From: Fictibacillus phosphorivorans
GTDB taxonomy: Bacteria > Bacillota > Bacilli > Bacillales > Fictibacillaceae
DNA: 64,000 nucleotides
Direction of reading: 5' to 3'
Assembly: GCF_001629705.1 (NCBI RefSeq)
Contig: NZ_CP015378.1
Span: forward strand, 2,418,001-2,482,000
Shown: positions 4,118 to 47,550 of the stretch, piece after piece
Position numbering within the stretch: position 1 is the stretch's first letter
Layout: every line of letters begins with the position of its first letter
Position numbers and translations under genes: made by a program
The notes under the pieces: generated by a model
Database searches by the model: none
Seen by the model: only the letters and a program-made list of their open reading frames with translations
Told to the model about the DNA's origin: nothing

Positions 4118-4256
4118 ACCTTTAAGATCCATCGACACGCTAAGAAAAAAGTTGATAAGTAACTGAAGTGTTAAATTTAGGAAGGTTTTTTGTAAAAAAA
4201 TGTAGAAATATATGTACTTGGAGATTTTGTTTGTATTGATAAAGGAGAGATCCGTT

Positions 4257-5039
4257 ATACAACTCGTGAAAAATAATTATGCACTCATTTCTTTAACATG
4301 CTTATTTTTTCTAGGCATTATCTTTTTTTCGTACAGGATGTTCAGTTTAGGTATGCTCTCAGTATTATCTTTGTTTGTACTATATAGAATTAACTTTAAA
4401 CATCGACCTACCGTATCCCTCTTCGTCTTCTTTTTGTCTGGGTTTGTATTATTCATTTTAGGAAATGACGTAATCGCTCAGTTTGGGATTTCTAAAGAAG
4501 CAAAGATTGTGCTAAATCGGAGCCTCTTATTCGTTCTAATACTAGGAACAGTTATCTCTATTAGAAGGACTAAAGAAGGAGTAAACCTTTATACGGTGAT
4601 GCCAAACTGGAATAGTCGTATCGAGTTTCCTAATCATACCATTAAGACTTTAACCTTTTTAGGGTTTGGTTTATTAGGATCAATGACCATATTCTTTCCC
4701 CTCCTTTTTATGGAGAGTACAAGTTTTTCGCAATCTCTTCTTATCTTTGCACTGGTCTTTTCTCTGATTAATTCTGTACTGGAGGAATTACTTTGGAGAG
4801 GGCTATTGTTATCATCTTTAAAAAAGTACGTTTCAACCTTTTATGCCGTTCTCGTTACTAGTATCGGGTTTGGGCTGCTACACCTATCCATCGGCATTCC
4901 TATTCTAATGAGTCTATCCTTTTCATTTGGAGGGCTATTTTATGCTTTGGTGGTGTTAAAGACAAAGAGTATCTATCCCGCAATCCTGTTTCATTTTGTC
5001 ATAAACATAGGGATGGTTCTTAACGGGTGGATTTTGTAA
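4257..5039 (+). CDS. CPBP family intramembrane metalloprotease; apparent ATA start
   Basis: CPBP (Abi/CAAX-like) proteases are multi-pass membrane proteins. The three motifs are present: EELLWRG (about 176-182), HLSIG, and HFVINIG near the C-terminus. Several hydrophobic helices precede them. The notable point is the start: AAAGGAG at 4241-4247 lies 9 nt before ATA at 4257, in frame. The alternatives are ATG 4212 (no ribosome binding site and inside the leader) and GTG 4266 (18 nt from the site). Substrate unknown. Confidence 0.75.
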   Translation: MQLVKNNYALISLTCLFFLGIIFFSYRMFSLGMLSVLSLFVLYRINFKHRPTVSLFVFFLSGFVLFILGNDVIAQFGISKEAKIVLNRSLLFVLILGTVISIRRTKEGVNLYTVMPNWNSRIEFPNHTIKTLTFLGFGLLGSMTIFFPLLFMESTSFSQSLLIFALVFSLINSVLEELLWRGLLLSSLKKYVSTFYAVLVTSIGFGLLHLSIGIPILMSLSFSFGGLFYALVVLKTKSIYPAILFHFVINIGMVLNGWIL

Positions 5040-9442: not shown

Positions 9443-9621
9443 AGAGAATCTCCCTTATCATGAGCTATTTTAGAAGTTTGAAAATAAGAGAACGTAGTCT
9501 TCTATGTCTTAAGTTTAACATTGCGTTTTGTGATTTTAATCCATTTTTATGTCTTTTTATGTAATTTTGTATTACATTTTATGTTAAAGGTTTATACAAA
9601 AAGGAACGGAGGGGAATTGTT

Positions 9622-9807
9622 ATAAAATTGGTGATGCACTCATTACTAACTTTCGTAATCGTATTTCTAATAAATTGGTTCTGGACTGAGCAAAGTTTTA
9701 TCTTGAAACCACTTGTTATAGGCGTGGTTTGTGGTGGAATTTTTTATAGCATTGAAAAGATATTTAAAAAGAAAAATACTAGTAAAGAAAAAAAGCGTAC
9801 TGTGTAA
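9622..9807 (+). CDS. ~60-aa small membrane protein; apparent ATA start
   Basis: GGAGG (9608-9612) lies exactly 9 nt before an in-frame ATA at 9622; TTG 9628, GTG 9631 and ATG 9634 follow in frame but at 15-21 nt. The protein has two hydrophobic helices (LLTFVIVFLINWFW and PLVIGVVCGGIFY) and a Lys-rich tail (KKKNTSKEKKR), so it is probably a two-pass membrane protein with a cytoplasmic basic end. It ends inside the shared terminator with kynA. No family recognised. Confidence 0.6.
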   Translation: MKLVMHSLLTFVIVFLINWFWTEQSFILKPLVIGVVCGGIFYSIEKIFKKKNTSKEKKRTV

Positions 9808-12290: not shown

Positions 12291-13192
12291 TCTGCTTCAC
12301 ATTCTTTGATATAACGATTCCACGGATGTTCCCTGCATTCTGTGCTGCACGAGCGTTTATGTTCATGCTCACACTCTTCACACATCAACAGATGCGCGTT
12401 GCATTCTGGATTTCCGCATTTCACATAACGTTCTTCGGGGTTTCCGCAATGATAACACTTACCCACTACAACCTCTTCCCCTGTTCGGTTAACCGGTACA
12501 GAGATCCGCTCATCAAACACATAACACTTTCCGTCCCATAGCTTACCTTTGGCTTCTTCATCATAGCCGTAGGATATGATTCCGCCTTCAAGCTGAGATA
12601 CGTCCTTGAATCCTTCTTTAACCAGGAAACCTGAGAACTTTTCACAACGTATACCGCCTGTACAGTAAGTAAGAACTTTTTTATCTTTAAACTGACTGAA
12701 GTTCTCTCTCACCCATTGTGGCAGCTCGCGGAATGTTTCTACGTCTGGTCTGATCGCATTCTTAAAATGGCCAAGGTCGTATTCGTATGTGTTACGGGCA
12801 TCTAAGATTACCACATCTTCTGATTCCATCGCTTCGAGCCACTCTTTTGGAGAAAGATGTTTACCTGTAAGTTCGTTTGGATTCACATCGTCTTCTAAAC
12901 TTAAGTGGACGAGCTCTGGACGAACGCGAACCTTCATCTTTTTGAAGGCATGTTCGTTCGATCCTTCTATTTTGAAAACCGTATCCGCAAAACGAGGGTC
13001 ATTTTTCATGAACTGCATGTATGATTCGGTTTGCTCTACCGTTCCTGAAACGGTTCCGTTGATTCCTTCATTCGCTACAAGAATTCTGCCCTTTAACCCG
13101 ATCTCCTTACATAGAGCGAGATGTTCTTCTTTAAATGCTTCAGGGTCTTCGATTGTTACGTATTTATAATACAATAATACTTGAAAGTCCAT
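12275..13192 (-). CDS. trhO: tRNA uridine(34) hydroxylase, rhodanese family
   Basis: TrhO makes 5-hydroxyuridine at position 34 of tRNA using oxygen (UPF0176; YbfQ in Bacillus subtilis). The protein has an N-terminal acylphosphatase-like part, then a rhodanese domain (about 120-215) with the active loop CTGGIRCEK containing Cys177 and Cys183. A C-terminal Cys-rich region with several CxxC pairs (about 240-290), typical of the Bacillus type, probably binds zinc. 305 aa from ATG 13192 behind AGGTGG. Confidence 0.9.
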
Positions 13193-25260: not shown

Positions 25261-26814
25261 TTAAAATTGCGTTCCACAACCTCCAATGTCTGTTTGTGGA
25301 GTAACTGCAGAAGTAAAGGTTGTACTGAATGAATCTCCTGCTGTATTAGTGGCCAAAATGTTCCAAGTAGCCGTGTTGCCTGATTGTGTGTATCCTATGA
25401 ATACATCAAATAGACCTTGCAACGTCGAATTACCAGAGGCAACTGCCTCTCCCTCAAGTGTGGCTCCTGTTTCACCTATACACGATATACGAATTCTTCT
25501 TCCTTGTATAAGGTTAAACGTGAAGCTGCCACCTGAAAATGTAATGCTAAAGTTATCTACTGCAGGATTACATCCTGGTGCTGCAATATAACATTGAACC
25601 GCAGAGACATTGATGGTACCTGACACAGTAGAAGGTACTCCCCCGTTCACAATATTGGCTGTGGCTGGTGCGCCTGTTCCAGCAACGCCTAATTGGAACT
25701 TACAAGGACATACTTCTTCTTCTGGGCAACTAAAATTAATATCAATAGAATCAGCCGTTGTTTGCCCTCCTACAGTAGCAGAAGCGGTCACGATTGTTGA
25801 TGTCGGTGCGGTACCTACAGGAACGGTCACATTCGTTGTAAACGTTCCATTTGCTAAAGTAATCGTCGGTGGAATGGTTGCTACCCCTACAGGGAATTGT
25901 GTAAATGTGATTGGTATTCCTGCTTGCGGTACTCCTCCGCAGGTAAGCGTACCAGAAATGGTTCCAGTACAATTAATCTCTGGCGCAGCAGTAAGCGTCA
26001 AGGTACAGTTACTTGGACAGGAACCTGTTACGGTAACGGAAGCATTCAACACTTGTGCACCAATCGTAGCGGTTGCGGTTATGACCGCTGACTCAATATC
26101 GACAGTACCAGCTGCTATATTAACACCCGTACCTACGTCTCCCTGTGAATCAGAAATGTCTGTGGCAGGATTCAACGTAAAATCTGGGTTGCTACTACTA
26201 AAGATAACCGTAACTCCTTCAATTGGCTGACCTCCACAAGTTACAACTCCAAATACACTTCCTGTACAGTTAAAAGGTGTTCCAGAGGAGAAAAGTTCCA
26301 ATGTACATAGTGCTGAAGGACACATTACCATCGACGTATCCGTTGTGGAAATCGTTCTACCGTTTACTACAGTAGAAGCTGAAATTACAACGTCTGTTTC
26401 AGGCGTACCCACTGGAACATCTACTTCAACACTAAAGTTACCAAACGAGTCGGTAACAATTGGATTTGGCGAAAATGTTAGAATCGATGGTGTTGATTGA
26501 AACGTTACAACGGCTCCTGATACGGGAATACCATTGCAAGTTACTTTACCATTAATCGTATCATTACACACAATAACGGCAGCTGATAAGATATCTATAC
26601 CACATCCTATTGTCGGAGAAAGTTCAACACCGATAATACAATCACAATCTAGAACGATCGGCCTCCCAACAGGATCTGTTCCAAATACGCAATTATCTCT
26701 AACTTCCAAAAAAGTTAATAAAATTTGTGTTCCTCTATTAGTAACAATTGTAATGTTTTGTCCGATTTTAAAACAACGAATAAGGTCACAAACGCAATTA
26801 TGTTGGTTGTCCAT
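25261..26814 (-). CDS. Cys-rich spore-surface-like protein with Ig-like repeats
   Basis: The 517-aa protein has no signal peptide. Residues 1-~70 are a Cys-rich domain (NCVC at 6-9, PIVLDCDCI at 52-60) shared with the protein at 46837. Three Ig-like (Big_1/invasin-type) repeats of ~95 residues follow, each opening with C-N/T-x-G-x-V/I-x-C-x-G-x-P and each ending near a Cys. A ~150-residue Cys-containing C-terminal domain completes it. Disulfide-linked surface assembly is plausible. A sigma-K-like promoter lies upstream, so mother-cell deposition on the spore is inferred. Confidence 0.75.
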   Translation of the reverse strand: MDNQHNCVCDLIRCFKIGQNITIVTNRGTQILLTFLEVRDNCVFGTDPVGRPIVLDCDCIIGVELSPTIGCGIDILSAAVIVCNDTINGKVTCNGIPVSGAVVTFQSTPSILTFSPNPIVTDSFGNFSVEVDVPVGTPETDVVISASTVVNGRTISTTDTSMVMCPSALCTLELFSSGTPFNCTGSVFGVVTCGGQPIEGVTVIFSSSNPDFTLNPATDISDSQGDVGTGVNIAAGTVDIESAVITATATIGAQVLNASVTVTGSCPSNCTLTLTAAPEINCTGTISGTLTCGGVPQAGIPITFTQFPVGVATIPPTITLANGTFTTNVTVPVGTAPTSTIVTASATVGGQTTADSIDINFSCPEEEVCPCKFQLGVAGTGAPATANIVNGGVPSTVSGTINVSAVQCYIAAPGCNPAVDNFSITFSGGSFTFNLIQGRRIRISCIGETGATLEGEAVASGNSTLQGLFDVFIGYTQSGNTATWNILATNTAGDSFSTTFTSAVTPQTDIGGCGTQF

Positions 26815-32141: not shown

Positions 32142-32891
32142 TTAACCCAACTGGCGTTTAAACTTTTTACTAGCAAAGAAGTAAGCAACCACCATAATTC
32201 CGATACACCAAGTAAGCGCCATCCAAATATCATTTCCAACTGGTCCCTCATACAATAGAGCACGAATCGCGTTCACAATAGATGTTACGGGTTGATTTTC
32301 CGCAAAGATACGCACGATCTTTGGCATTGTTTCGGTAGGAACGAATGCTGAACTGATAAAGGGTAGGAATACGAGCGGGTACGAATAAGCGGTAGCTCCT
32401 TCCATTGAACTTGCTGTTAAACCAGGTATGACAGCGAGCCATGTAAGCGCTAGTGTAAATAGACCAAGTATCCCCGCTACAGAAAGCCAATCTAGAAGTC
32501 CTGCGTTAGAACGAAAACCCATCAGCAAGGCGACTAAAATAACAATCAAGATCGTAAGTGCATTTGAAACAAGTGAAGTTAAAACATGTGCCCACAATAC
32601 GGATGATCGTTTGATTGGCATGGTTATAAAACGAGCCATTAATCCACTCTTCACATCTGTAAACAGTCGAACAGACGTATAAGCCACGCCTGATGCGATC
32701 GCCATCAGCAAAATTCCCGGTAATAAGTAATTCACATAGTTGTCTGTCCCAGTCTCAATGGCACCGCCGAATACATAAACAAACAATAACATCATCATAA
32801 TCGGTGTAATAGCCACCGTGATAATCGTATCCGGACTTCGCATGATATTACGCATTAAACGCCCTAATAAAGTTCCTGTTATCCTTTTCAT
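32142..32891 (-). CDS. ABC-2 type transporter permease (DrrB-like)
   Basis: The 249-aa protein has six TM helices and the ABC-2 signature region GAIETGTDNYVNYLLPGILLM after the first. It pairs with the ATPase encoded directly upstream (1-nt spacing). Together they form an exporter, probably for a drug, lipid or peptide. Start ATG with AAAGGAGAG. Last gene of the padR-DUF1048-ATPase-permease set. Confidence 0.88.
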   Translation of the reverse strand: MKRITGTLLGRLMRNIMRSPDTIITVAITPIMMMLLFVYVFGGAIETGTDNYVNYLLPGILLMAIASGVAYTSVRLFTDVKSGLMARFITMPIKRSSVLWAHVLTSLVSNALTILIVILVALLMGFRSNAGLLDWLSVAGILGLFTLALTWLAVIPGLTASSMEGATAYSYPLVFLPFISSAFVPTETMPKIVRIFAENQPVTSIVNAIRALLYEGPVGNDIWMALTWCIGIMVVAYFFASKKFKRQLG

Positions 32892-33653
32892 CTACACACT
32901 CTCCTTTTTACCGATGATGTTGAGGAAAATATCCTCGAGCGATGGCTGCTTTTCAACGTACTCCACTATAGCTTTCGGAAACATCTCTTTCAGTTCTTGC
33001 AGCGTGCCGGTCTTAATGATTACTCCACCATGTAAAATCGCGATACTGTCCGCGAGCTGCTCGGCTTCTTCCAAGTATTGTGTGGTCAATAATATGGTCG
33101 TACCACCATTCGCAAGTTCTTTTACAGTACTCCAAACTTCAATACGTGCTTCAGGATCAAGTCCTGTTGTTGGTTCGTCAAGAAAAATGACGTCTGGTGC
33201 TCCAATTAGACTCATGGCAATGTCAAGCCTTCGTTTCATCCCACCTGAATATTGGTCACTGCGTTTATTCGCGGCTTCCGATAAGCTGAATCTTGCAAGT
33301 AAATGATCTGCGACCTCACCTGGATTGTTAACACCTCTTAATTTAGCGATCATCATTAGGTTTTCCCGCCCTGTAAGCATTTCGTCTAAAGCTGCAAACT
33401 GCCCTGTTAAACTAATGCTTTGACGGACTCCATCGGGTTGGCGATTGACATCAAATCCGCAGATTAGCGCTTCCCCTTCATCCGCTTTCATCAATGTAGA
33501 AAGAATGTTGACGATCGTCGTCTTCCCCGCTCCATTTGATCCTAACAAAGCGAAGATTTCTCCCCTATTCACCTCTAAATCTACTCCTTTTAAGACTTCC
33601 TTATCTTTGAAAGACTTTTTCAAGCGTTTTATAGAAATCGTTGTTTGATTCAT
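32892..33653 (-). CDS. ABC transporter ATP-binding protein (DrrA-like)
   Basis: Walker A GSNGAGKTT (about 38-46), Q-loop region SLTGQFAAL, signature YSGGMKRRLDIA, Walker B VIFLDEPTTGLD and the H-loop TTQYLEEAEQLAD (Gln replaces the usual switch His). The C-terminal SLEDIFLNIIGK is typical of DrrA daunorubicin-type exporters. 253 aa from ATG 33653 with GAGGAGG. A palindromic candidate operator lies 47 nt upstream of the start. Confidence 0.9.
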   Translation of the reverse strand: MNQTTISIKRLKKSFKDKEVLKGVDLEVNRGEIFALLGSNGAGKTTIVNILSTLMKADEGEALICGFDVNRQPDGVRQSISLTGQFAALDEMLTGRENLMMIAKLRGVNNPGEVADHLLARFSLSEAANKRSDQYSGGMKRRLDIAMSLIGAPDVIFLDEPTTGLDPEARIEVWSTVKELANGGTTILLTTQYLEEAEQLADSIAILHGGVIIKTGTLQELKEMFPKAIVEYVEKQPSLEDIFLNIIGKKESV

Positions 33654-33699
33654 GTTTTTCCTCCTCAATTTCACTATTTAGCACCGCCGATAATAAGTG

Positions 33700-33717
33700 T
33701 TACTTAGTACTGAGTAA
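33700..33717. promoter_or_regulatory. Candidate PadR operator upstream of the ABC genes
   Basis: TTACTTAGTACTGAGTAA is an 18-bp near-perfect palindrome (one mismatched pair). Its core ACTnAGTAC recurs upstream of padR at 34522 and 34599, which argues for a shared regulator. Confidence 0.55.
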
Positions 33718-33739
33718 AAAAATAACTGAATAGTTCCCT

Positions 33740-34105
33740 CTACATTCTATTCAGCCATAAATAATACTCTTTTCCTAATTCCTTCTTAATACTTTGGTTC
33801 AAACCTTCACGATATTTAGCAAAATAGGTCTTGGCGTTTGCTACGAGTTCATCTGCAAAAGATGCCACGTCTTCCCCTGTAATGTCTAGCACGGGTCTCC
33901 CTTCTGCTGCTCCTGCTTCAAACAAATCAATCAACTCATACTGGATGTGTAGCATATCTATCCCGTTTCCAGATGAAAAGTTCCACATATACGTTTGAAT
34001 CTTTTTAAATACAAACTGATAATCCTCCGGAAGAGCTTCAACACGCGCCATCATCATTTTGTATTCTTTCTTATCACCAATCATCTTTTTAATCCATTCC
34101 AACAT
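33740..34105 (-). CDS. DUF1048 family protein
   Basis: The 121-aa protein matches the DUF1048 pattern (KKEYKMMMARVEALPEDYQ; VLDITGEDVASFADEL), an all-helical family of unknown function found next to PadR regulators and ABC exporters. It is likely to work with the PadR protein or the exporter. AAAGGAGG precedes the ATG. It is 58 nt downstream of padR. Confidence 0.85.
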   Translation of the reverse strand: MLEWIKKMIGDKKEYKMMMARVEALPEDYQFVFKKIQTYMWNFSSGNGIDMLHIQYELIDLFEAGAAEGRPVLDITGEDVASFADELVANAKTYFAKYREGLNQSIKKELGKEYYLWLNRM

Positions 34106-34163
34106 ATTTCCTTCCTCCTTTTTATCCCTTCCATTTATAACGCCACCGAAACACTTTATGTGC

Positions 34164-34484
34164 TTACTGTGATTTCAATCCATTAATCTTTGAAGATACG
34201 AAATCCCATTTTCTCCAAAATGATTTAAGTTCTTGTCTGCCCGCTTCATTGAGCGTGTAAAACTTCCGAGGTGGTCCCATATCTGATGGCTTCTTGACGA
34301 TGTCTACTAATTTCTTTTTTTCTAACCGTACGAGGATCGTGTATACCGTACCCTCCACCACTTCTGTAAATCCTAGATCGTTTAAGCGTCGTGTAATTTC
34401 ATAGCCATAGGTTTCATGACGACTGATTATTTCTAACACACAGCCTTCAAGAGAACCTTTTAGCATTTCTGTTAAATTTTCGAT
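34164..34484 (-). CDS. PadR-family regulator; apparent ATC start
   Basis: The winged helix spans the protein (LEIISRHETYGYEITRRL; VVEGTVYTILVRLEKKKLV; MGPPRKFYTLNEAG). GGAGG lies 8 nt before an in-frame ATC at 34484, giving the N-terminus [I/M]ENLTEMLKGSLEG; the first ATG is six codons later and 26 nt from the site. Related PadR proteins begin MENLTEMLKG (recalled, not searched), supporting the ATC site. It probably represses this operon until a drug-like ligand binds. 106 aa. Confidence 0.8.
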   Translation of the reverse strand: MENLTEMLKGSLEGCVLEIISRHETYGYEITRRLNDLGFTEVVEGTVYTILVRLEKKKLVDIVKKPSDMGPPRKFYTLNEAGRQELKSFWRKWDFVSSKINGLKSQ

Positions 34485-34521
34485 GTCAGGAGCCTCCTTT
34501 ATTTCATATGACCTATAATAA

Positions 34522-45004: not shown

Positions 45005-45556
45005 TTAAACAAATAAAGCCATCAGGATTAAATCTTGATATTGGTCGTCCATTTTAACCGCTTTTGCTTTTCTTCCTTCTTCAACAAAATTCAGTGATTT
45101 ATATAAGTGTATGGCACCTTGGTTGTCTTCCATAACTTCCAGACAAATCTTTTCGATTGTTTTGTTGTTTCTAGCCCAAGAAATCAGCGATTCTAACAGT
45201 GCTCTTCCAACCCCTAGATTTCGAAATTGGGGTAACACAGTCATCGCAAAAGAACCTTGATGGGCGATTTTCTCCTTATTTCCGTTTTTAAAATCAATCA
45301 CACCTGCAATCTCATTCTCATATTCAGCTACTAGTTTGAGATTATTTGGGTTTGTGGAGTAGTATTCTAACTCCTTTTTAATATTTTCTAGGCTTAACTT
45401 TTCAAGATCCTCTATAGTAGTTAACATGTAAGGAGCGTCCACCAATGCTTTTGGAGCAGCCACTAACATCTTCTCAGCATCTTCTATGGAAGCCTCTCTT
45501 ACTGTTACTTTTCTTTCACCTTTAGTTTTATAGGTATAACAATGAGTCGATAACAT
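45005..45556 (-). CDS. GNAT-family N-acetyltransferase
   Basis: The GNAT fold is clear: VTVREASIEDAEKML opens it, IAGVIDFK is beta-4, MTVLPQFRNLGVGRALLESLISWA holds the acetyl-CoA loop (R/Q-x-x-G-x-G/A), and NQGAIHLYKSLNFVEEG ends it. 183 aa. ATG with AAGGG at 9 nt. The acceptor is unknown. It is followed on the same strand by no close gene. Confidence 0.85.
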   Translation of the reverse strand: MLSTHCYTYKTKGERKVTVREASIEDAEKMLVAAPKALVDAPYMLTTIEDLEKLSLENIKKELEYYSTNPNNLKLVAEYENEIAGVIDFKNGNKEKIAHQGSFAMTVLPQFRNLGVGRALLESLISWARNNKTIEKICLEVMEDNQGAIHLYKSLNFVEEGRKAKAVKMDDQYQDLILMALFV

Positions 45557-46775: not shown

Positions 46776-46803
46776 ACATTTTTTCATTGTACAACATACA
46801 ATA
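46776..46803 (+). promoter_or_regulatory. Sigma-K-like promoter of the P-domain gene
   Basis: AC (46776-46777, in CACA) is followed after 17 nt by CATACAATA (46795-46803), matching AC-N16/17-CATAnnnTA. The Ig-repeat gene has the same spacing. Confidence 0.55.
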
Positions 46804-46836
46804 GCTTATCCTTAATTTTATTGGAGGTAATTTAAA

Positions 46837-47550
46837 ATTAACACAAATTGCGTTTGCCATACATTTCGTTTTTTACGCGCTGGTACAATTCTTCAAGTTT
46901 TACTGAATGGTGCTTCTGAGACCCTACGAATATCATTTGTTAGATTCAATGGTCATTGTTTAATCGGTTTACTTAATGGTTCACCTATTCTACTTGATTG
47001 CGATTGTATATGTTCTATTGGGATTGTTCCTCCTTGCGTTGAACGAACAACGACTTTTACTAATACAACACCTATTGCAATTCCCGATTTATCAACAGGA
47101 GTTCCATATCCTTCTCAAATCAATGTAACCGGACTAACAGGAAGAATTGGTAAAGTAACCGCAACTACAAATGGCTTTAGCCATACTTTTCCAGAAGATG
47201 TTGGATTCTTGCTTGTTGGTCCTCAAGGACAAACCGTTGAACTAATGAGTTGTGCGGGTGGTAGCATAAATGCTGTAAACGCAAACCTTACTTTTGATGA
47301 TAGTGCTCCTAATCAAGTCCCGACACCAATCGTTTCTGGTACCTATCAGCCAAGTATTTTTTGTGCACGCACATACAGTTCACCTGCCCCGACTCCACCT
47401 TATGGAACTCAACTGTCCGTTTTTAATGATACACTTCCTAATGGTTTATGGAGTCTTTTCGTCCAAGATTATTTTTTTATTGATACAGGTAGTATTAGCG
47501 GTGGCTGGACTTTGAATATTACATCTTGTGAAATTGTTAGCACTATATAA
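46837..47550 (+). CDS. Cys-rich surface protein with P/Homo-B-like domain; ATT start
   Basis: Frame opens after TAA 46828; GGAGG (46823-46827) lies 9 nt before ATT 46837. No ATG, GTG or TTG occurs in frame until 47209, 124 codons in, so ATT is the likely start. Residues 5-~65 (NCVC ... PILLDCDCI) match the N-terminal domain of the Ig-repeat protein. Residues ~80-235 resemble a proprotein-convertase P-domain (GRIGKVTATTNGFSHTFPED, LLVGPQGQTVELMS, LPNGLWSLFVQD, GSISGGWTLNI). No signal peptide; a spore-surface role is inferred. 237 residues. Confidence 0.75.
   Translation: MNTNCVCHTFRFLRAGTILQVLLNGASETLRISFVRFNGHCLIGLLNGSPILLDCDCICSIGIVPPCVERTTTFTNTTPIAIPDLSTGVPYPSQINVTGLTGRIGKVTATTNGFSHTFPEDVGFLLVGPQGQTVELMSCAGGSINAVNANLTFDDSAPNQVPTPIVSGTYQPSIFCARTYSSPAPTPPYGTQLSVFNDTLPNGLWSLFVQDYFFIDTGSISGGWTLNITSCEIVSTI

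Follow-up and report, generated by a model that had tools for sequence, protein, structure and literature searches.

Initiation factor IF3 discriminates against the mismatched initiation complexes formed at AUU, AUA and AUC codons (AUH; ATH in the DNA), and its own gene, infC, starts at AUU or AUA and is autoregulated by IF3. In Escherichia coli, the AUU start of pcnB limits the protein to a low level. Weak starts have also been described in Staphylococcus aureus, in cvfC1 (AUU), ccpN (AUA) and citZ (AUA), where AUH reporters gave about 10% of the AUG output in poor medium and the ccpN reporter up to 30% in rich medium (PMC13009471), and an AUC start mutation in a Bacillus subtilis rny-lacZ fusion led to a much lower expression (PMC10303841).

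Here, we analysed a stretch of 64,000 nucleotides of Fictibacillus phosphorivorans (G000:C1:2418001-2482000, called the window; positions are those of the window unless a contig or locus is given), which belongs to a genome of 4.23 Mb in a single contig, and compared 18 Fictibacillus genomes. A sequence-only reading of the window had pointed to four genes opened by ATT (46837), ATA (4257 and 9622) and ATC (34484), and on rereading these positions we find each codon 8-9 nt past a Shine-Dalgarno (SD) sequence and at the opening of a coding frame. With a probability of about 80%, we consider AUU, AUA and AUC to be the genuine translation starts of these genes, and probably weak ones that would hold their output low. 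The feature is real and conserved and its kind is already known; what is added here is the genes themselves and the use of AUC in padR.

The known systems resemble the window genes to different degrees. In infC, AUH likewise follows a strong SD and is conserved in a clade, and this holds in the present genome too, where the codon is ATT; however, infC autoregulates, whereas none of the window genes codes for a translation factor, and IF3 would act on them in trans. The pcnB case is that of a single gene in another phylum. The S. aureus genes are likewise AUH genes of Firmicutes with a strong SD, conserved in the case of cvfC1 and of ccpN, which codes for a repressor (PMC13009471), but the genes described here are other ones, use AUC as well, and have a third base that varies between species in three of the window families. 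None of the matches listed in our literature search deals, by title or abstract, with AUH starts of these genes.

Conservation of AUH at the probable start codon

The four window genes have AUH at the start codon in every Fictibacillus orthologue read, that is in 10/10 for padR, 9/9 rows for a CPBP-type gene, 5/5 for a gene coding for a small membrane protein and 5/5 for a surface protein gene here called P0001, with ATG in none of the orthologue rows. The sequence-only reading had held that ATH in the relatives would speak for real use, and ATH is indeed retained across the genus in all four families. The combination of SD and ATH in the four genes is thus more than chance, and that a weak start is kept in related species makes a real way of holding output low the most likely explanation, rather than sequencing error. 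The third base seems to be of little matter in some families, being A or T depending on the species, and padR has a fixed ATC. The SD sequences of the four genes have a dG of -10.7 to -13.2, the median for 46 canonical starts being -10.8; they are slightly stronger than the latter (p = 0.034), a p-value that is biased because the SD was a selection criterion.

P0001 and the possible loss of its start

P0001 (46837..47550, + strand), delimited from its open reading frame, profile matches and dN/dS, codes from ATT for 237 aa comprising a Cys-rich N-terminal domain and a P-domain-like part. Its match to the profile PF01483, which many of its database homologues carry, lies below the Pfam cut-off (E 0.003, 18 bits against a gathering score of 21). 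The N-terminal domain, of about 65 residues, recurs in further predicted surface proteins of Fictibacillus, among them an Ig-repeat protein of the window (25261-26814, - strand), and the similarity that had been claimed between P0001 and the N-terminus of the latter is real, if weak (E = 4.3e-5, 33% over 64 residues). A homologue of this Ig-repeat surface protein (L016, in G012, - strand) has CTG at the start position after AAAGGAATATT, and the window copy has ATG.

The ATT codon (46837..46839, + strand), assigned from orthologues aligned by SD spacing, lies 9 nt after GGAGG (46823..46827, + strand; dG -10.7 kcal/mol). An in-frame TAA at 46828 directly follows the SD, with zero in-frame ATG, GTG or TTG between it and ATT, and the absence of a canonical codon over 124 codons was read correctly, the first ATG, GTG or TTG downstream of ATT occurring at 372 nt. 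The automatic start search placed the start of P0001 at 47110, inside the frame, which is a failure of the method at this gene; the start at 46837 was therefore assigned by eye. Further upstream, CATACAATA (46795..46803, + strand), a sigma-K-type -10 with AC 17 nt upstream of it, matches CATANNNTA, which we take to be the sigma-K -10 consensus. The presence of a CATANNNTA box 26-34 nt before the SD in 5/5 orthologues, with a background of 0.032 per 100 nt in the window, suggests that P0001 is probably a late mother-cell gene of sigma-K type for the spore surface.

Matches to P0001 occur in 10/18 Fictibacillus genomes, and the five full-length orthologues start with ATT in this genome, ATA in G015 (80% identity), G009 (79%) and G002 (51%), and ATT in G001 (48%), at 9 nt from GGAGG in this genome and at 8 nt in the other four. 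These codons were counted by SD spacing (ATT 2, ATA 3), and a gapless alignment would give ATT 3 and ATA 2 instead; G009 has a shorter leader, in which the gaplessly aligned ATT is only 2 nt from GGAGG, and its ATA at 8 nt was the codon counted. A canonical start at this codon was seen in paralogues only, the five full-length ones (44-46% identity) all having ATG.

P0001 is the least certain AUH start among the four window genes, because in four orthologues the SD overlaps an ATG or TTG that is in frame. For this gene alone, one might suppose that the start was lost in the present genome through an extra base and the TAA beside the SD, so that P0001 is untranslated here while its relatives start at the ATG or TTG overlapping GGAGG. 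Such a codon is indeed found in frame at -15 in 4/5 orthologues and is absent in this genome, where the spacer is one base longer (9 rather than 8) and contains the TAA; moreover, with G015 as outgroup, 7 amino-acid changes are specific to this genome and 4 to strain 5RED26 (5 have no lineage assignment), and database entries of P0001 relatives begin with MEV (two) or MKI (one), placing their starts at the ATG or TTG that overlaps the SD or two codons upstream of AUH (for 5RED26, from the protein alone). G015 has an additional ATG 6 nt before ATH. Against such a loss, the ATG or TTG of the four orthologues has, by eye, no SD of its own and is TTG in two of the four, GGAGG is correctly spaced for ATH in 5/5 orthologues, and the 237 codons of P0001 are intact, with a dN/dS over codons 2-124 of 0.20 against G015 and of 0.20-0.29 against all four orthologues. 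We thus consider the loss of the start unlikely, and retain AUU as the start of P0001.

Start codons versus internal isoleucine codons

A second alternative is that ATH is in each case an ordinary internal isoleucine codon, with translation from a canonical codon upstream or downstream; its third base is only ever A, T or C, as expected of isoleucine. The evidence bearing on it differs between genes. On the basis of its open reading frame, profiles and orthologues, padR (34164..34484, - strand) codes from ATC for a PadR-family regulator of 106 aa and is the first gene of a padR-DUF1048-ABC-ABC2 cluster. The ATC (34482..34484, - strand), kept in the ten close Fictibacillus orthologues (91-100% identity), is preceded at 8 nt by the SD AAAGGAGG (34493..34500, - strand; dG -12.0). 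The 69 nt between the upstream stop and ATC contain no in-frame canonical codon, the next ATG being at +18, and L024 and L026 likewise have an upstream stop with no in-frame ATG, GTG or TTG before ATC. Outside Fictibacillus, the start codon of padR is ATG in G018 and G033, TTG in G032 and G027, and ATC in G021. Among the plasmid records of padR, of which 5 of 12 matches were read, it is ATC in Priestia megaterium KF18 and Niallia taxi, ATG in Peribacillus R9-11 and Mesobacillus foraminis, and TTG in P. megaterium ELP1.24a; between the Niallia (ATC) and Peribacillus (ATG) genes, the stretch from SD to start differs by one base, and the KF18 record's own annotation begins the padR CDS at ATC. 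A tree of 20 padR genes requires two changes between ATC and a canonical codon, 9/17 of its inner branches being without resolution. A canonical codon (AUG or UUG) at the homologous start is found in relatives for padR and, outside the window, for the genes of an old yellow enzyme and an OppC-like permease (both described below), and such a start in other genera at the same codon indicates that this codon is the start.

After ATC, padR changes in the manner of coding sequence: codons 2-6 have 2 synonymous changes over 2.7 sites and 1 non-synonymous change over 12.3 sites. The 24 nt upstream do so far less, with little synonymous bias (6 synonymous changes over 3.7 sites and 19 non-synonymous changes over 20.3 sites). 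Common gene callers favour ATG, GTG and TTG, and will thus miss, truncate or extend genes with AUH starts. Among the best 120 of 7046 padR homologues, 19 show Ile at the start position, and gene callers have extended every one of these 19 N-terminally, as the internal-isoleucine alternative would have it; 1 is called from the next Met onwards.

The padR-DUF1048-ABC ATPase-ABC2 permease cluster occupies 32142-34484 (- strand) of the window, and padR also adjoins DUF1048 on the Priestia KF18, Peribacillus and Mesobacillus plasmids. The same PadR-DUF1048 pair, at 33740-34484 in the window, is known from Listeria, where the PadR-like gene lftR forms an operon with the DUF1048 gene lftS; the main text of that report does not contain the terms "start codon" or "initiation codon" (PMC4517056).

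The CPBP (Rce1-like) membrane protease-type gene (4257..5039, + strand; 260 aa from ATA, by open reading frame, profiles and orthologues) has the SD AAAGGAG 9 nt before ATA (4241..4247, + strand; dG -12.0). Its start codon is ATA in 5 and ATT in 4 of 9 rows, namely seven orthologues and two paralogues at 61-100% identity, a count that leaves out L054 (36%) and L250 (partial). In 5/9 rows, from three related species and the two paralogues, an upstream stop is followed by no ATG, GTG or TTG before ATH, and the gene is readable only from there. An upstream in-frame ATG or TTG is present in four species, among them the present one, where it occurs from 4212; thus the claim that the gene is readable only from its ATH codon holds for P0001 from ATT, but not for CPBP from ATA in this genome. 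Substitution counts are of no help to an AUH start in this gene: codons 2-15 have 15.5 synonymous changes over 9.7 sites and 32.5 non-synonymous changes over 32.3 sites, and the 24 nt upstream of ATH have 8 over 5.7 and 17 over 18.3 sites, so that no constraint was found in the first 14 codons and change is alike before and after ATH, as an internal codon would show. None of the CPBP orthologues read has a canonical start.

The small membrane protein gene (9622..9807, + strand; 61 aa from ATA, by open reading frame, profile and orthologues), whose similarity to the SA1362 family is below the curated cut-off, has the SD GGAGG 9 nt before ATA (9608..9612, + strand; dG -13.2). The start codon is ATA in 4 and ATT in 1 of the five orthologues, with an upstream stop and no canonical codon before ATH in 5/5. 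In-frame TTG, GTG and ATG codons occur within 12 nt downstream of ATA, far from the SD, and all of them are missing in G012. No relative with a canonical start was found among the orthologues read.

Two genes elsewhere in the genome bear on the same point. In infC, taken as a positive control, the start is ATT in 18/18 Fictibacillus and in 14/14 loci read in sister genera (14 of 16 genomes), and no in-frame ATG, GTG or TTG lies between the upstream stop and ATT in 18/18. In the gene of an old yellow enzyme, presumably YqjM-like, the start is ATT in 16, ATC in 1 and TTG in 1 (F. aquaticus) of the 18 Fictibacillus; in the sister genera g2 and g4, the homologous codon, located by extending the alignment without gaps, is ATG in 8 and TTG in 1 of 9 rows, and in three rows of g3 ATG comes one codon later (5 rows without loci are left out of the count). 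All of the 17/17 AUH rows have an in-frame ATG or TTG adjoining the SD (-9), which could be taken to favour an internal codon, as do the upstream ATG or TTG of four species in CPBP and in P0001. A start codon at zero SD spacing should be unusable, and no synonymous bias is seen before ATH in this gene. Finally, in the old yellow enzyme gene (16/17 ATT, with 1/18 internal columns uniform), padR (10/10 against 1/6) and infC (18/18 against 4/11), the start codon varies less than the codons of invariant isoleucines inside the gene; CPBP, P0001 and the small membrane protein gene show no such difference. Altogether, that these codons are internal isoleucines is highly improbable, and initiation at AUH is the reading we prefer. 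That the ATH codons are ATG misread in sequencing or assembly, for which the sole argument is that all four codons differ from ATG at one base, is excluded by the agreement of independent assemblies, the same state being found in those of 5 to 18 species. The sequence-only reading had offered either weakly translated genes with AUH starts or inactivating changes and sequence errors; the AUH starts are borne out by the orthologues of all four genes, the translation from them would be weak, and both error and, for padR, CPBP and the small membrane protein gene, inactivation have dropped out, a lesion at 46837 being a minor possibility.

Search for further AUH starts

A codon-agnostic start search in the window covered 72 genes, of which 12 were dropped (fewer than 2 orthologues) and 60 assessed; 12 were flagged as non-canonical, and the flags for CPBP, the small membrane protein gene and padR were judged real. 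Those at 13093, 17857, 21834, 27943, 35011, 37657, 60129 and 63874 are artefacts (internal SD-like motif, adjacent ATG, or ATG or TTG in relatives). A GNAT gene (window 45005-45556, - strand) has ATT in G005 and ATG in six species, with a GTG and an SD-like motif downstream, and its start is ambiguous.

With four AUH genes the window is rich, but it was picked because of them. An SD with ATH and without a canonical alternative is rare: 400 kb sampled from this genome gave 3 raw candidates, or 4 with a retrained gene model, one of them confirmed by orthologues. Raw candidates per 400 kb numbered 4 in G000, 9 in G003 and 7 in the sister-genus genome G032; those confirmed by orthologues are the old yellow enzyme gene (G000) and an OppC-like permease gene (G003). 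The remaining candidates of G000 and G003 were judged by eye from the listing, several being clearly internal and others still candidates, and the seven of G032 included no case that was obvious by eye. With so few confirmed cases, one per 400 kb Fictibacillus sample, a generally relaxed choice of starts in the genus is not supported.

Genome-wide, AAAGGAGGN7-9ATH has 36 matches against 44 for the reversed pattern, so that there is no bulk excess of this arrangement. Of the 36 matches, 35 were read (3896767 was left out), and those of padR, the OppC-like permease gene and a Y1-type transposase gene look real. The latter, of the Y1_Tnp (IS200-like) type (L188:592-1143, + strand), has ATT after AAAGGAGGTGAAAACC (dG -21.5). 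Further AUH candidates are L151, L158, L179, L189 and the L100 frame among the pattern matches, and L093 in the 400 kb sample. L173 and L159 were rejected as AUH starts, having a better start downstream, and the other matches either lack a long frame or have a suitably spaced canonical start.

The start of the OppC-like permease gene is ATC in G000 and G010, and ATA in G002 and in one of two copies in G003, G008 and G014; the same codon is TTG in 7 rows and ATG in 9 rows of the genus and 4 outside it, these counts leaving out many rows without loci, and rows L210-L219 being unaligned at the start. The frame of the ATA copy of G008 is interrupted after 23 codons. At G000:C1:3296211-3298276, two OppC-like permease genes stand in tandem (L176, L190), one with an ATC start and its neighbour with ATG. 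An OppC-like frame with one TGA and one TAA is found at both G000:C1:2203200-2204171 and G009:C11:343180-344151, and is perhaps a shared decayed gene.

Selection, mechanism and significance

Among comparable fourfold sites, the fraction at which G never occurs comes to 0.05 when multiplied over six families. Avoidance of AUG at these starts is a fair guess; as this figure supports it weakly, much of the conservation of AUH could be inertia.

With an SD 8-9 nt upstream, AUH would come to lie in the ribosomal P site, where the initiator tRNA(CAU) could start on it with a third-base mismatch, two of three bases being paired and the complex being held by the SD. Initiation would then be inefficient and more sensitive to IF3 than at AUG, and, given the discrimination of IF3 against AUH complexes, output would be low and tied to IF3. 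A special initiator tRNA finds no support: a pattern search, not exhaustive, for initiator-type anticodon stems with any anticodon gave two matches, both CAU. A weak, IF3-sensed output would fit both the ATT of infC in 18/18 Fictibacillus and the S. aureus reporter data (PMC13009471).

Low output and control by IF3 may thus extend, in Fictibacillus, to proteins that would be made at low or condition-dependent levels, such as the PadR regulator, the CPBP membrane protein, the small membrane protein and the sporulation surface protein. One might speculate, very tentatively, on an AUH regulon of the genus, in which unlinked genes are held at AUU, AUA or AUC, drifting among the three and not to AUG, and share with infC an output governed by the level of IF3 or the fidelity of initiation, padR being so held in several other Bacillales genera too. 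Conservation of AUH at the homologous start across species offers a simple, genome-only test for weak starts, and the PadR regulator (AUC) and the old yellow enzyme (AUU) are new candidates for IF3 control beyond infC.
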